A stretch of 64,000 bases of DNA from Collimonas sp. OK412 (GTDB lineage Bacteria > Pseudomonadota > Gammaproteobacteria > Burkholderiales > Burkholderiaceae_D). A model generated the notes under the pieces. That model saw only the letters and a list, made by a program, of their open reading frames with translations, was not told the origin of the DNA and did not search any database. A program made the position numbers and the translations under genes. Shown here one piece after another: positions 49,595-55,922 of the stretch (position 1 is its first letter; each line of letters starts with the position of its first letter). The stretch is taken from assembly GCF_900112135.1 (NCBI RefSeq), contig NZ_FOLC01000001.1, positions 186,001-250,000 on the forward strand, written 5' to 3'.

Positions 49595-51049
49595 ATGTTT
49601 GCAGCAGTGGATTTGGGGTCGAACAGTTTCCGTTTGCATATAGGCAAATACAATGGTGATGCGATCCGCGTCATCAAGAGTGCGCGCGACCCGATCCGAC
49701 TGGCTGCCGGCCTTGACGCCAAAGGTTACCTGACCGAACAGGCGATGCAGGTTGCGCTGGATTCGCTGTCGCGCTTCCGTAGCATCCTGGCCGACTACCA
49801 GCTGGAAGCGGTGCGGGTGGTGGCCACCAACACCTTGCGCGTGGCCAAGAATGCGGCGGAATTCCTGCCAATCGCCGAACAGGTCATCGGCTATCCGATT
49901 GAAATCATTTCGGGCGAAGAGGAAGGCCGGCTGATCTATATGGGCGTCGCCAGCATGCTGCGCCTGCCGAATGAAAAAAGGCTGGTGCTGGATATCGGCG
50001 GCGGCTCCACCGAGCTGATCCTGGGACGCGGCCAGCAGATCGAACGGGTCGAATCGTTCGGCATCGGCACGGTCAACCAGAGCCTGGCGTTTTTCGCCGA
50101 CGGCCAGATCACGGCCGAGGCTTACGACGCGGCGGTGCTGTCCGCCCGCAGCCATTTCGAAGACGCGGCGCCGCCGTACCGGCCGCAAAACTGGAGCCAT
50201 GCGTATGGCTCTTCCGGCACGATCCGGGCGATTGCCGAGACTATCGAGAAAAACGGCCTGGGCGACCATCGCCTGTCGTACACCAGCCTGGAGGCCCTGC
50301 GCGGGTGTTTCGTCGAGTTCGGCCACGTCAGCCGGATCGACCTGCTGGGCATGAAGCCGGAGCGCGCCGCGGTCATGGTCGGCGGCCTGGCGGTGCTGAT
50401 CGGCCTGATGCAGGAACTTGGCATCGAAGCGATCCAGCCGATCGAGGCAGGCCTGCGCATGGGTGTGATGTGGGACCTGCAGTTGCGCGGCACGCGGCTG
50501 GACCGACGCGACCAGTCGGTGCACGATTTTTCCCAGCGTTTCCATGTAGACCAGCTGCGCGCCAGCCGGGTCGCCGAAACCGCAACCTCGCTGTTTGAAA
50601 TGCTCAAGCCCAGCAGCGACGGCCTCAGCCAGTACCTGCACTGGAGCGCCTTGCTGCATGAAGTCGGGCTGGTGGTGTCGCAGAGCGGTTATCACAAGCA
50701 TGCTGCCTACCTGATCGAGAACGCTGACCTGTCCGGTTTCACTACCCGCGAACAGCGCGCCATGAGCATGCTGATCCTTGGCCAGAAGGGCAACCTGCGC
50801 AAGATCAGCGATGCGCTGCTGGATCCGGATTTTTCCAAGGCGGTGCTGGCTTTGCGCCTGGCGGTGATGTTCCTGCATTCGCGGATCGAGATCGACCTCG
50901 ACGAATTGCGCCTGAAGATGAAGAGCAAGATCGAACTCGACATCAAGCGCGACTGGATTGAAGACCATCCCACCGCGACTTACTGGATGACCAAGGAACA
51001 GGACTGGTGGCGCGAGATCGGCGTCGATTTTGCCATCCGCCGGACCTGA
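49595..51049 (+). CDS. ppx: Exopolyphosphatase (Ppx/GppA family)
   Basis: 484 residues. FAAVDLGSNSFRLHIGKYNG is the phosphate-1 motif of the actin-like fold. VVATNTLRVAKNAAEFLPIA, ISGEEEGRLIYMGV, LVLDIGGGSTELILG and AYGSSGTIRAIAETI follow. The C-terminal third is an HD-like helical domain (WSALLHEVGLVVSQSGYHKH). It releases phosphate from polyphosphate ends or hydrolyses pppGpp; the family cannot be split safely by eye. AAAGGTAAGCA precedes the ATG. A terminator follows. Its nearness to the phosphate-related operon at 53133 may be meaningful or chance. Confidence 0.93.
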   Translation: MFAAVDLGSNSFRLHIGKYNGDAIRVIKSARDPIRLAAGLDAKGYLTEQAMQVALDSLSRFRSILADYQLEAVRVVATNTLRVAKNAAEFLPIAEQVIGYPIEIISGEEEGRLIYMGVASMLRLPNEKRLVLDIGGGSTELILGRGQQIERVESFGIGTVNQSLAFFADGQITAEAYDAAVLSARSHFEDAAPPYRPQNWSHAYGSSGTIRAIAETIEKNGLGDHRLSYTSLEALRGCFVEFGHVSRIDLLGMKPERAAVMVGGLAVLIGLMQELGIEAIQPIEAGLRMGVMWDLQLRGTRLDRRDQSVHDFSQRFHVDQLRASRVAETATSLFEMLKPSSDGLSQYLHWSALLHEVGLVVSQSGYHKHAAYLIENADLSGFTTREQRAMSMLILGQKGNLRKISDALLDPDFSKAVLALRLAVMFLHSRIEIDLDELRLKMKSKIELDIKRDWIEDHPTATYWMTKEQDWWREIGVDFAIRRT

Positions 51050-52417: not shown

Positions 52418-52879
52418 ATGGTTACCAGTAAAATTGTGAAACGTGTCGTCAAAAAGCCGGTTGCAGCGCCAAAAACCGTTGCCAAGGCCAAGCCTGTTGC
52501 GCGTCCAGCTGCCAAGCCGGCGGCAAAACCTGCTGCCAAGCCAGTAGTGAAGGCCGCCGCAAAGCCTTTGCCTAAGGCCTTGCTGGCTACCAAGCCGGTT
52601 GCAGCCAAGCCTGCGCCAAGCATCAAGTCGCTGCCGGATTTGAAGGGCAAGGTAAAGAAAGCCAAGCTGGTGCGCGACAGCTTCACCATGCCGGCCGATG
52701 AATACCAGGTGCTGGGCGACGTCAAGAAAACATTCTTGAAAGCCGGCCTCGAAGTGAAGAAGAGCGAGCTGCTGCGGGTCGGCGTTGCCTTGATCCGCGA
52801 ACTGGGCCTGGCCAACCTGAAACTGGCCGTGGCCAGCCTGCCGCCGGTGAAGGCGGGCCGTCCGAAGAAGGAAAAATAA
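52418..52879 (+). CDS. Histone H1-like Ala/Lys/Pro-rich protein with possible ribbon-helix-helix C-terminus
   Basis: 153 residues. The first 75 are almost only Lys, Ala, Pro and Val, with AAKPAAKPAAKP-type repeats like bacterial H1-like and AlgP-type DNA-binding tails. The C-terminal half (VRDSFTMPADEYQVLGDVKK, KKSELLRVGVALIREL) has a strand followed by two helices that resembles a ribbon-helix-helix domain. It then ends in a basic GRPKKEK tail. It probably binds DNA without strong sequence preference; a role in nucleoid structure is inference. TTGGAGAGTTGA precedes the ATG, and a TTGCCG/TATATT promoter lies upstream. Confidence 0.78.
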   Translation: MVTSKIVKRVVKKPVAAPKTVAKAKPVARPAAKPAAKPAAKPVVKAAAKPLPKALLATKPVAAKPAPSIKSLPDLKGKVKKAKLVRDSFTMPADEYQVLGDVKKTFLKAGLEVKKSELLRVGVALIRELGLANLKLAVASLPPVKAGRPKKEK

Positions 52880-53046: not shown

Positions 53047-53108
53047 ATGTCATAAAACCGAAATAAACCTGTCATTTTCTTGAAGTAATCCGTGGTTAGG
53101 CTTGTCAT
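53047..53108 (+). promoter_or_regulatory. PhoB-box-like half-sites in 11-bp phase before olsB
   Basis: ATGTCAT (53047-53053), CTGTCAT (53069-53075) and TTGTCAT (53102-53108) match the PhoB half-site CTGTCAT. Their spacings are 22 and 33 bases, exact multiples of the 11-base PhoB period. A weaker half-site, CCGAAAT, is in phase at 53058-53064. AGTAAT at 53084-53089 could be the -10 box, eight bases after the second strong half-site as in Pho promoters. Confidence 0.6.
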
Positions 53109-53132
53109 CGTCACAATCAGAAAGGACGATGA

Positions 53133-53900
53133 ATGCAACTACTAACGAATCCTGGCGAAGCAAGTACGAGTGTTTCCAAGTTGACGGTTAGTCTTGCCAG
53201 TACGCCGGAAGAAGTACGCGAAGTGCAGCGTCTGCGCTATAAGGTTTTTATCGAGACGATGGGCTTGTCCGCGCTGGCCAATGCGGATGGCCTGGACAGC
53301 GATGAATTCGACTCTTATTGCGATCACCTGATCGTGCGCGACACCAACACCTTGCGCGTGGTTGGCACCTATCGCGTCATGAGCCCGCATGCGGCAAGAA
53401 GCATGGGGCGTTATTACTCGGAACAGGAATTCGACCTCGGCCGCCTCGACAACCTGCGCAGCAGCATTGCCGAAGCCGGGCGCGCCTGCATCGATCCCGA
53501 ATACCGCAGCGGCAGCGTCATCATGCTGCTGTGGGCCGGCCTGGCGGCCTTCATGCGGCGCGAACGCTGCGACTACCTGATGGGCTGCGCCAGCGTCAGC
53601 CTGGCCGACGGCGGGCACAACGCCGCGGCCTTGTACCACAGCCTGGAGCCGGGCAATTTCGCTCCGGCCGAATACCGGGTCACGCCGCATGTGCCGTTTC
53701 CGGTCCATGAGCGTGAAGCCGGCCATGTGGCGCAGATGCCGCCGCTGCTGAAAGGCTATCTGCGCAGCGGCGCCTGGGTCTGCGGCGACCCGGCCTGGGA
53801 TCCCGATTTCCACTCCGCCGATTTTTTCCTGCTGCTGCCCTTGTCCAAGCTGGACCAGCGCTATGCGCGCCACTATCTTAAAGAAACGAGGGCGACATGA
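53133..53900 (+). CDS. olsB: OlsB-type L-ornithine N-alpha-acyltransferase (GNAT fold)
   Basis: 255 residues of the hemolysin/OlsB branch of GNAT acyltransferases. VQRLRYKVFIETMGLSALAN, DEFDSYCDHLIVRDTNTLRV, VGTYRVMSP, EAGRACIDPEYRSGSVIMLL and YLMGCASVSL are the family blocks. OlsB joins a 3-hydroxyacyl chain from ACP to ornithine, the first step of ornithine lipid synthesis at the inner membrane. The partner OlsA is not in the window. AAAGGA precedes the ATG. It overlaps the next gene by four bases (ATGA), and phased Pho-box-like sites lie upstream, so induction by phosphate limitation is proposed. A related acyl-homoserine-type or other acceptor cannot be excluded. Confidence 0.8.
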   Translation: MQLLTNPGEASTSVSKLTVSLASTPEEVREVQRLRYKVFIETMGLSALANADGLDSDEFDSYCDHLIVRDTNTLRVVGTYRVMSPHAARSMGRYYSEQEFDLGRLDNLRSSIAEAGRACIDPEYRSGSVIMLLWAGLAAFMRRERCDYLMGCASVSLADGGHNAAALYHSLEPGNFAPAEYRVTPHVPFPVHEREAGHVAQMPPLLKGYLRSGAWVCGDPAWDPDFHSADFFLLLPLSKLDQRYARHYLKETRAT

Positions 53901-54781
53901 AACCAGGCGAACAGTTTCTGGAAGCTGCGTTGTTTGGCGCAAATTCCGGCGCCGGCGTTAGCGCCGGCGCCGGCGCCAAGCGAGATCCGATCCGCTTTCG
54001 CACCATCTGGATTTCCGATGTCCACCTGGGAACCACCGGCTGCCAGGCTGCTCGCCTGCTGGAGTTTTTACGCGCGACCGAGTCGGACACCCTGTACCTG
54101 GTCGGCGACATCATCGACGGCTGGCAGCTGAAGCGCCGCTGGTACTGGGACCAGGTCCACAACAACGTAGTGCAAACGGTGCTGAAAAAAGCGCGCAAGG
54201 GAACCGAGGTGATTTTTGTGCCCGGCAACCATGACGAGGCTGTGCGCCAATTCATCGATCTGGACTTCGGCGGTATCCGGATTCGCGATGAATTGGTGCA
54301 TACCACCGCGCAGGGGAAACGCATGCTGGTGCTGCACGGCGACCGTTTCGACGGCGTGATCGCCTGCGCCAAATGGCTGGCGTACGTGGGCGACAGCCTG
54401 TACACCGTGATCCTGAAATTCAACCAATGGTTCAACGGCTGGCGCGCACGCGCCGGCCTGCCTTACTGGTCGCTCTCGCAATACCTGAAGCTGAAGGTGA
54501 AAAACGCCGTGAACTACATTTCTTCATTTGAAGATGCCTTGGCGGCGGAAGCGCAGAAGAAGGGCCTGGACGGCGTCATTTGCGGCCATATCCACAAGCC
54601 GGAAATCCGCGACATCAACGGCATCACCTATTGCAACGACGGCGACTGGGTGGAAAGCCTGTCGGCGCTGGTGGAAGAAGCCAGCGGCGAATTGCGCCTG
54701 GTGACCTGGCAGGAAATCATGCAGCAAAAGAATCCAGTGTCCGGCAAGAAGGTTAAAGAATTATGCGAATTGCCATCGTAA
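53897..54781 (+). CDS. Calcineurin-like metallophosphoesterase, LpxH/PlcP-like
   Basis: 294 residues. The five metallophosphoesterase motifs are present: WISDVHLGTTG, YLVGDIIDGWQL, VPGNHDEAVRQF, VLHGDRFDGV and VICGHIHKPEIRD. Database names for such proteins usually say UDP-2,3-diacylglucosamine diphosphatase. The phospholipase C PlcP of Sinorhizobium, which strips phosphate headgroups during phosphate starvation, belongs to the same superfamily. Between an OlsB gene and a GT4 gene, the PlcP role (phospholipid to diacylglycerol) is the better guess. The first 30 residues include a Gly/Ala run (SGAGVSAGAGAK) of low complexity. It overlaps olsB by four bases and the glycosyltransferase gene by 19. 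Confidence 0.82.
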   Translation: MKPGEQFLEAALFGANSGAGVSAGAGAKRDPIRFRTIWISDVHLGTTGCQAARLLEFLRATESDTLYLVGDIIDGWQLKRRWYWDQVHNNVVQTVLKKARKGTEVIFVPGNHDEAVRQFIDLDFGGIRIRDELVHTTAQGKRMLVLHGDRFDGVIACAKWLAYVGDSLYTVILKFNQWFNGWRARAGLPYWSLSQYLKLKVKNAVNYISSFEDALAAEAQKKGLDGVICGHIHKPEIRDINGITYCNDGDWVESLSALVEEASGELRLVTWQEIMQQKNPVSGKKVKELCELPS

Positions 54782-55821
54782 CGGACGCCGGGCAATCGCA
54801 GATCAACGGGGTAGTCAATACTTTGCGCGCCACCAGCGCATGCTTGCGCCATAACGGCCACGAAGTGCTGCTGCTGAGTCCCGACGATTTCCCGACTTTC
54901 GCCTGTCCCACCTATCCGGAAATCCGCCTGGCGCACAAGCCTTATGCCAGGATCGCGGCCAGCCTGAAGGCGTTTGGGCCCGACTGCATCCATATCTCGA
55001 CCGAAGGGCCGATGGGCCTGGCCGCCAGGCGTTTCTGCCTGCGCCAGGGAATAGGCTTTACGACCGCCTACCATACCCGTTTCCCCGAGTACCTGAGCGC
55101 GCGTTCGATCCTGCCCAAGGCGCTGACCTACCGCTGGCTGCGCTGGTTCCACGGTCCTTCGAAAGCGGTGATGGTGCCGACGCCGCATGTGCTCAAGGAG
55201 CTGGAGCAGCGCGGCTTCCGCCATCTGGTGTTGTGGGGCCGAGGGGTGGATACCGAGCGTTTCAAGCCGGTCGACGAGGACCACGCTTGCATCGTCCGCC
55301 CTTTGTACCTGTACGTCGGCAGGGTGGCGGTGGAAAAGAACATCGAGTCGTTCCTGCAGGTTGACCTGCCGGGCAGCAAATGGGTGATCGGCGACGGCCC
55401 GCTGCGCGAAGAGCTGCAGCAGCGCTATCCGGATGTGCAGTTCCTGGGCGCCAAGCCGCACCACGAACTCACCTCGTATTACAACTGCGCCGACGTGATG
55501 GTGTTTCCCAGCCATACCGATACCTTCGGGCTGGTCATGGTCGAAGCCATGGCATGCGGGGTGCCGGTCGCCGCTTATCCGGTCGCCGGTCCGCTCGATG
55601 TGGTGGCGCACGGGCGCTCCGGGATACTGGACGAGGACTTGACCTCGGCTTGCCAGCGGGCTCTGGCGCTGGACCGGCGCGAGGTGCGGGAACATGCGCT
55701 GGAATATTCCTGGGAGTACGCCACGCAGCAGTTCCAGCAGCATCTGTTTCAGATCCATGGGGTGAAAGCGCGCCCCAATAATCTGCTGGCCGGCAGGTCA
55801 CGGCCCGCTTCCGGCCTTTGA
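54763..55821 (+). CDS. GT4-family glycosyltransferase (Agt/MgtA-like)
   Basis: 352 residues of the GT-B fold. The N-terminal domain begins RIAIVTDAGQSQINGVVNTL. The C-terminal nucleotide-sugar domain has LYLYVGRVAVEKNIESFLQV, WVIGDGPLREELQQRYPDV and the EX7E-type block HTDTFGLVMVEAMACGVPVA. Members transfer hexose or glucuronic acid from a nucleotide sugar. Agt-type enzymes glycosylate diacylglycerol to make phosphorus-free glycolipids with PlcP; MgtA-type mannosyltransferases are close relatives. The 19-base overlap with the phosphoesterase gene shows tight coupling. The acceptor is inferred from context only. Confidence 0.85.
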   Translation: MRIAIVTDAGQSQINGVVNTLRATSACLRHNGHEVLLLSPDDFPTFACPTYPEIRLAHKPYARIAASLKAFGPDCIHISTEGPMGLAARRFCLRQGIGFTTAYHTRFPEYLSARSILPKALTYRWLRWFHGPSKAVMVPTPHVLKELEQRGFRHLVLWGRGVDTERFKPVDEDHACIVRPLYLYVGRVAVEKNIESFLQVDLPGSKWVIGDGPLREELQQRYPDVQFLGAKPHHELTSYYNCADVMVFPSHTDTFGLVMVEAMACGVPVAAYPVAGPLDVVAHGRSGILDEDLTSACQRALALDRREVREHALEYSWEYATQQFQQHLFQIHGVKARPNNLLAGRSRPASGL

Positions 55822-55884: not shown

Positions 55885-55922
55885 AATAAAATGCCCCGTT
55901 TGGAAGAACGGGGCATTTTTAT
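55885..55922. terminator. Bidirectional terminator between the glycosyltransferase gene and bamD
   Basis: AAATGCCCCGTT (55889-55900), loop TGGAAG, AACGGGGCATTT (55907-55918). T-rich on the plus side and A-rich on the other, so it can serve both convergent genes. Confidence 0.92.

Follow-up and report, generated by a model that had tools for sequence, protein, structure and literature searches.

Operons in which plcP is followed by agt are known from Pseudomonas aeruginosa, SAR11 and Methylosinus (passages of PMC8528852, PMC4796936 and PMC9239053). In P. aeruginosa, PA3219 is the phospholipase and PA3218 one of the two glycosyltransferases for the synthesis of the glycolipids MGDG and GADG (passages of PMC8528852). 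One published section covers six plcP neighborhoods with betaine-lipid genes or glycosyltransferases, and that section names no ornithine-lipid gene (PMC4796936, section 13). Pho boxes have been predicted before olsB in Burkholderia sensu lato and Acinetobacter (passages of PMC7814305 and PMC11828411), and a sulfate-reducing bacterium has been studied through mutants in agt and olsF (passages of PMC5193443). Pho-dependent PlcP, OlsA and OlsB of Pseudomonas putida were published together (passages of PMC5082522), so that the statement of an earlier note on the DNA studied here, that the two lipid routes are usually discussed separately, is only partly right. Here we analyze a stretch of 64,000 nucleotides from the 5.46 Mb genome of Collimonas sp. 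OK412 (contig NZ_FOLC01000001.1, positions 186,001 to 250,000; hereafter “the window”), in which genes for an OlsB-type ornithine N-acyltransferase, a PlcP-type phosphoesterase and a GT4 glycosyltransferase follow one another and very probably form a PhoB-controlled lipid-remodeling operon for phosphorus-free membrane lipids.

From gene order, protein families, phylogenies and a conserved Pho box we infer the reactions, the substrates and the binding of PhoB. When phosphate is short, PhoB would bind the tandem box and the three genes would be transcribed together. PlcP would cut the phosphate head group from phospholipids to give diacylglycerol (DAG), to which the GT4 enzyme, like Agt, may add glucose or glucuronate, and OlsB would N-acylate ornithine, with an unlinked OlsA-like acyltransferase predicted to finish the ornithine lipid. 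The expected outcome is that phosphate is freed, and that glycolipids and ornithine lipids replace phospholipids under one control. This reading draws on the Pho box, the presence of a separate LpxH, the identity to P. aeruginosa plcP-agt1, the replacement of the GT4 by a GT28 in relatives, the OlsA-like gene, and the repeated joining of aminolipid genes and plcP.

A three-gene unit behind a tandem Pho box

The overlaps that led the earlier note to regard the three genes as one unit are exact on recomputation, with 4 bases between olsB and plcP (53897-53900) and 19 between plcP and the GT4 gene (54763-54781). PlcP was found in 60 of the 116 genomes searched in the family of the window genome (all 60 loci were examined; L069 is cut at a contig end), and plcP is immediately preceded by olsB in 33 of these 60, which argues that the gene order is not chance. 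The computed olsB/plcP overlap is again 4 bases at 26 of the 33 loci.

Pho-box scores are matches to a tandem of three CTGTCAT copies with an 11-base period (maximum 21), significance being set at p < 0.05 against shuffles. The first three half-sites before olsB (53047-53075) reach 17, the top of 127,944 window positions (63,972 per strand) and the sole score of 16 or more, and the tandem box stands 57 bases upstream of olsB. A significant box also precedes the unit at 28 of the 33 family loci (at L046 barely, and at another place), and is found at 70 of 79 named olsB loci, i.e., 24 of the 31 that have plcP as a neighbor and 46 of the 48 that do not (80 loci, one unscored as its upstream side is cut; this set shares species with the family set). 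Five of the seven named misses with plcP are Herbaspirillum (best two-copy site 10-11 of 14), and both misses without plcP are Pseudomonas. The 48 named loci without adjacent plcP (within L149-L228) come mostly from Janthinobacterium, Massilia, Duganella, Pseudoduganella and Rugamonas, and each is the aminolipid half alone at its locus.

The pstS of the same genome has a similar box upstream (15 of 21, p = 0.005), and pstSCAB-phoU-phoB-phoR lie on contig C27 (read from ORF translations; pstS by model). By eye, the 8-base spacing from the last half-site to the candidate -10 element GTTAGGCT also occurs before this pstS and in relatives; no sigma-70 consensus promoter was found at GTTAGGCT. Genome-wide, a two-copy consensus with at most two mismatches gave 36 matches vs. 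17 for a reversed control, so a lone match proves little, and it is position and conservation that carry weight. The link to phosphate scarcity, assumed in the earlier note, is supplied by the Pho box. That note had the structure and the likely function right, and overlooked the box (its interval, 53133..55821, leaves out the promoter at 53047-53102), the swapping in the third slot and the wider joining described below.

The middle gene is PlcP-type, not LpxH

The middle gene encodes a PF00149 metallophosphoesterase that falls below the LpxH cut-offs (47.7 vs. 190.35 bits for TIGR01854, and 51.6 vs. 134 bits for the other model). In the genome search, the true LpxH on contig C27 scores 282.8 bits and the operon phosphoesterase 45.7, for a cut-off of 190; the PlcP homologs of P. 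aeruginosa and Sinorhizobium meliloti likewise miss TIGR01854 (44.5 and 38.9 bits). Across the order, 39 of 41 genomes hold a protein above this cut-off (202.5-313.9 bits), and 15 further matches at 22.2-52.4 bits are presumed to be PlcP, at least in part. In a 71-row tree (45 PlcP and 26 LpxH; L046, L079 and L103 were dropped from 48 for a stop in frame), the LpxH rows, including E. coli K-12 LpxH, split off from the PlcP rows with 100/100 support, the window protein lying on the side of P. aeruginosa and S. meliloti PlcP; several long branches are flagged in this tree, including L063 and L066 on the PlcP side, with L063 nearest to the LpxH side. The earlier note had named grouping with LpxH as the result that would speak against it; LpxH instead forms a separate group, and the genome has an LpxH of its own.

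The window protein is 55.2% identical to the P. aeruginosa plcP homolog and 46.8% to that of S. meliloti. In an alignment of 23 PlcP rows, D41, H43, D71, H147, H231 and H233 are invariant and N111 nearly so, and the motifs DxH, GD, GNHD, GD and GHIH correspond to invariant or nearly invariant columns; we take these residues and motifs to be metal ligands. The middle gene is therefore PlcP-type rather than LpxH, with a predicted phospholipase C activity. Its homologs go by another name in public records, much as the earlier note anticipated: among 28 matching records of a plasmid collection, all 22 annotated at the match are called UDP-2,3-diacylglucosamine diphosphatase (one of them also overlaps a glycosyltransferase), and six have no annotation there. 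The locus thus points to a broad misannotation of PlcP as LpxH.

The glycosyltransferase and the third slot

The third gene encodes a GT4 protein (PF13439/PF13692) with 51.1% identity over 92% to the homolog of P. aeruginosa agt1 (PA3218). In the GT4 tree, built from 32 of 33 rows, the window protein and the PA3218 homolog lie on one side against three outside GT4 with 92/99 support, which is short of 95, the outside rows being long branches. Both results agree with the Agt-type assignment made earlier. The P. aeruginosa stretch used here has plcP, a 4-base overlap, the glycosyltransferase gene, and then an adenylate cyclase gene, and from this order we take it to be PA3219-PA3218; the gene following that pair in PAO1 is, we assume, a cyclase.

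After plcP, the 33 olsB-plcP loci have a GT4 (21), a GT28 (4) or no recognized glycosyltransferase (8); in L025 a GT28 gene starts after the GT4 gene. The third-slot GT28 proteins carry PF06925, the MGDG synthase domain, and their best NCBIfam match is diglucosyl-DAG synthase (207-219 bits for a cut-off of 500; two proteins scanned). A GT28 with such a domain in this slot fits DAG as the substrate used there. Where the third gene is lacking, seven of the eight genomes have no Agt-like GT4 (E ≤ 1e-40) either, and all seven have a GT28 elsewhere; the eighth, G087, has an Agt-like GT4 in two pieces. In total, a GT28 was found in 13 of 15 chosen genomes and a GT4 in the remaining two (G022 and G087), so that one or the other accompanies PlcP in every case, as would fit DAG being the PlcP product. 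The window genome itself encodes, on contig C11, a further glycosyltransferase presumed to act on DAG, this one of the GT28 type. This gene has its own Pho-box-like site (L120:1340-1410), common to congener L122 and not to L123. A Pho box before the GT28 gene as a general rule was considered and rejected, with significant scores in only 2 of 12 loci (L120 and L122). Within Glaciimonas, G. immobilis has the third gene and G. soli has none (L156, L161), so the presence of the glycosyltransferase varies even inside one genus.

The OlsB-type acyltransferase and its partner

The first gene matches PF13444 (119.2 bits), and its two best NCBIfam models are OlsB (156.7 bits for a cut-off of 320, and 152.1 for 350), followed by OlsF (61.8 bits). 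The names of the two OlsB models end in BRUA and RHOCB, which we take to denote subgroups; as both cut-offs are missed, we file the protein as OlsB-type rather than as a certified equivalog. The nearest named relative is from a Collimonas fungivorans metagenome-assembled genome (99%), then come other Collimonas (91-97%). A search of solved structures for similarity to OlsB gave nothing except a weak match to an acyl-homoserine-lactone synthase. The operon has no olsA, and an OlsA-like acyltransferase is encoded on contig C21 (127.6 bits to the OlsA model, cut-off 300, and 99.4 to the 1-acylglycerol-3-phosphate acyltransferase model).

The same genome holds a second, weaker PF13444 protein (L002, G000:C16:449952-450197; 30.9 bits, open frame of 188 aa). 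Two Pseudomonas OlsB, from P. fluorescens ISL-62 and P. lactucae (L164:3462-5466 and L218:1937-3917), are nested inside Oxalobacteraceae OlsB in the tree. No significant Pho-box score was found before either, and each is followed by an ORF of 359 or 378 aa. The copy in L164, with no Pfam match at 1e-3, reads like an acyl-CoA dehydrogenase. Possibly the two genes form a unit that moved horizontally and serves another purpose.

Joining of aminolipid genes and plcP in other lineages

Across 398 Pseudomonadota genomes, PlcP occurs in 149 (E ≤ 1e-30), OlsB in 132 (E ≤ 1e-40) and both in 87, an odds ratio of 6.4 that is uncorrected for kinship and only a hint. Outside the family of the window genome (f1 in our family labels f1, f2, f5, etc.), the order olsB-plcP-GT4 recurs in two f2 genomes (L094 and L098). 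The OlsB of this f2 cassette is nested among f2 OlsB, its PlcP is the sister group of the remaining f2 PlcP (with a Mitsuaria row), and the GT4 of f1 and f2 cassettes form separate clades; a single clade for the OlsB of both cassettes is rejected (approximately unbiased test, p = 3e-7). Formally, a single ancestral cassette that was lost many times may also account for this pattern. A different arrangement is found in f5, where plcP-GT4-dgkA of four congeneric genomes (L088, L089, L090 and L093) stands opposite a divergent OlsA-like gene, recognized with a single-sequence model. With longer flanks, olsB is seen after dgkA in two of them (L244 and L245), and distances in the other two fit the same order (DgkA is PF01219 in L244, the one tested).

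In other orders of the class, OlsF lies within 3 kb of PlcP at 12 of the 24 loci examined (4 olsF-plcP, 7 plcP-olsF on the same strand, 1 divergent; families f17, f13, f30, f31 and f19). These 24 wide-flank loci were chosen from 41 PlcP genomes with most of the Pseudomonas-type f15 omitted, so the fraction is not random. Ten of 11 OlsF scanned (out of 12) exceed the NCBI cut-off of 620 bits, L265 falling below at 599.7, and in L254 olsF and plcP overlap by 4 bases. Gene fusions were considered as a stronger form of linkage and rejected: the long open frames near PlcP read as stop-poor frames, and no PlcP-glycosyltransferase or PlcP-OlsB fusion was found in the five loci checked (L254-L258). 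By the three-copy test, a Pho box precedes 0 of 3 olsF-plcP loci (L254 untested), 3 of 7 plcP-olsF loci, the divergent L265, 1 of 2 f2 cassettes, 4 of 5 plcP-GT4 loci of f5 and 4 of 4 plcP-GT4-dgkA-olsB loci of f5 (p = 0.002). Related bacteria thus appear to have joined both lipid pathways in several ways.

Weighing the readings

Several observations weigh against a PhoB-controlled operon for both lipid classes. The Pho box is not significant at five of the 33 family loci (L010, L012, L014, L015 and L017), at seven of the 31 named cassette loci and at the f2 cassette L260, and none was found before the genome's own OlsA-like gene. The unit can do without the GT4, as eight of the 33 family cassettes carry no recognized glycosyltransferase after plcP. 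OlsB stays below both curated equivalog cut-offs (320 and 350 bits), and the amino acid used could therefore differ. Finally, among the 87 genomes with OlsB and PlcP, the two were seen within 6 kb in only 10 (places were compared for 41; in 43 the genes are on different contigs, where broken assemblies may hide nearness, and 3 have no place for PlcP), which makes joining the exception in the phylum at large.

These points bear unequally on the alternatives. It is hardly credible that the middle gene encodes another LpxH-like enzyme for lipid A synthesis, with the GT4 decorating lipopolysaccharide (LPS): the superfamily is common to both, the nearest solved structures by sequence are LpxH and public annotation agrees, but the score is far below the cut-off while a high-scoring LpxH lies elsewhere in the genome, the tree separates the two groups (its long branches notwithstanding), and the Pho box and the aminolipid neighbors do not fit such a role. 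Action of the GT4 on another acceptor (phosphatidylglycerol, or a bactoprenol-linked or LPS sugar) also seems quite improbable. The best NCBIfam match of the protein is indeed N-acetylglucosaminyl-phosphatidylglycerol synthase (69.7 bits, cut-off 480), but the PA3218 homolog, a published DAG glycosyltransferase 51% identical to it, scores similarly weakly on the same model (59.9 bits), and the slot is held by an MGDG-synthase-type GT28 in four relatives. Somewhat less remote, though still unlikely, is that OlsB loads another amino acid (lysine, glutamine or glycine), or that its product is a diffusible N-acyl amino acid, the unit then serving a different aminolipid. Beyond the missed cut-offs, this would accord with weak matches to the GlsB and FeeM models, and with A. 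baumannii olsB/olsA giving lysine lipid too (passages of PMC11828411), whereas the OlsB models lead the next family by ~90 bits and an OlsA-like partner is present.

It is a more serious possibility, if one we hold at somewhat less than even, that the genes are grouped merely by common PhoB control and the two lipid routes are otherwise uncoupled. The boxes before olsB at 46 of the 48 named loci without adjacent plcP, the separately numbered loci of Pho-dependent PlcP and OlsAB in P. putida (passages of PMC5082522), and the many genomes in which the two genes are not seen close together all favor it; on the other side, the conservation of tight overlaps from genus to genus and the recurrent joining with OlsB or OlsF suggest, without proving, selection beyond co-control. 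Returning to the PhoB-controlled operon, it is tempting to speculate, with similarly tentative confidence, that aminolipid synthesis and PlcP phospholipid breakdown are one coupled module in Pseudomonadota, which selection has brought together at one locus on three or more occasions from varying parts (OlsB or OlsF; GT4, GT28 or none; DgkA recycling surplus DAG), co-expression setting the aminolipid/glycolipid ratio. If so, PlcP would be needed for normal ornithine-lipid replacement and not for glycolipids alone. The locus makes this mutual dependence of PlcP and ornithine-lipid synthesis testable, as a single, apparently Pho-driven place where one could switch on, delete or transfer both phosphorus-free lipid routes at once, and olsB or olsF adjoining plcP offers a gene-order signature for finding phosphorus-sparing bacteria in genomes.

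Features and neighboring genes

Table 1. Features of the predicted lipid-remodeling operon (window positions; genes from the ORF list of the window).
Feature	Position	Strand	Basis
Tandem PhoB box	53047..53086	+	half-sites ATGTCAT, CCGAAAT, CTGTCAT, TTGAAGT, 11-base period; fourth by eye
Candidate -10 (GTTAGGCT)	53095..53102	+	8 bases past last half-site; spacing by eye
Shine-Dalgarno-like AAAGGA of olsB	53121..53126	+	read from sequence
OlsB-type ornithine N-acyltransferase (predicted), 255 aa	53133..53900	+	PF13444, 119.2 bits; best NCBIfam models OlsB, below cut-off
PlcP-type intracellular phospholipase C (metallophosphoesterase; activity predicted), 294 aa	53897..54781	+	identity to PlcP homologs; tree apart from LpxH
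Agt-type GT4 DAG glycosyltransferase (predicted), 352 aa	54763..55821	+	51.1% to P. aeruginosa agt1 homolog; GT4 tree
Terminator-like hairpin after operon	55888..55919	+	14-pair stem, T-rich tail

The hairpin directly follows the last gene; the region has three terminator-like sites vs. 5.1 expected from shuffles. Upstream of the cassette, 52418-52879 is a lysine/alanine-rich, histone-H1-like ORF with no Pfam match at 0.01, and similar ORFs stand upstream in some relatives by eye (L018, L026, L031, L032 and L039). A Ppx/GppA exopolyphosphatase-family gene lies 2 kb upstream (49595-51049). On a Mitsuaria plasmid, plcP adjoins a Ppx/GppA gene and a gene annotated as ppk1. ORFs that look, by eye, like Ppk, SixA or PstS are found beside the cassette in some relatives.

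Comparison with known systems

LpxH has the calcineurin-like superfamily and motifs in common with the window PlcP, but belongs to a separate, non-orthologous group. GT28 enzymes of the UgtP/MGDG-synthase type, which stand third in 4 of 33 cassettes, presumably use DAG as the window GT4 would, though they are of a different glycosyltransferase family. S. meliloti encodes both a PlcP (which we take to be SMc00171) and an OlsB, 46.8% and 32.1% identical to those of the window, but its genes lie far apart on the replicon. The plcP-agt operons of P. aeruginosa, SAR11 and Methylosinus, like the window, place a GT4 Agt after PlcP, with a Pho box in P. aeruginosa, where the pair is 55% and 51% identical to the window PlcP and GT4. 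Unlike the window, these operons have no olsB, and olsBA of P. aeruginosa is a separate operon (passages of PMC9804370). The olsB units of Burkholderia sensu lato and Acinetobacter have a Pho box as in the window, and the passages of PMC7814305 and PMC11828411 mention neither plcP nor a glycosyltransferase in them. No description of olsB or olsF with plcP in one operon was found in searches of open-licence PMC papers, which covered titles, opening parts of abstracts and selected passages. Each enzyme, the plcP-agt pair and the Pho-boxed olsB are thus already known, and it is the three-gene unit and its OlsF versions that look new.

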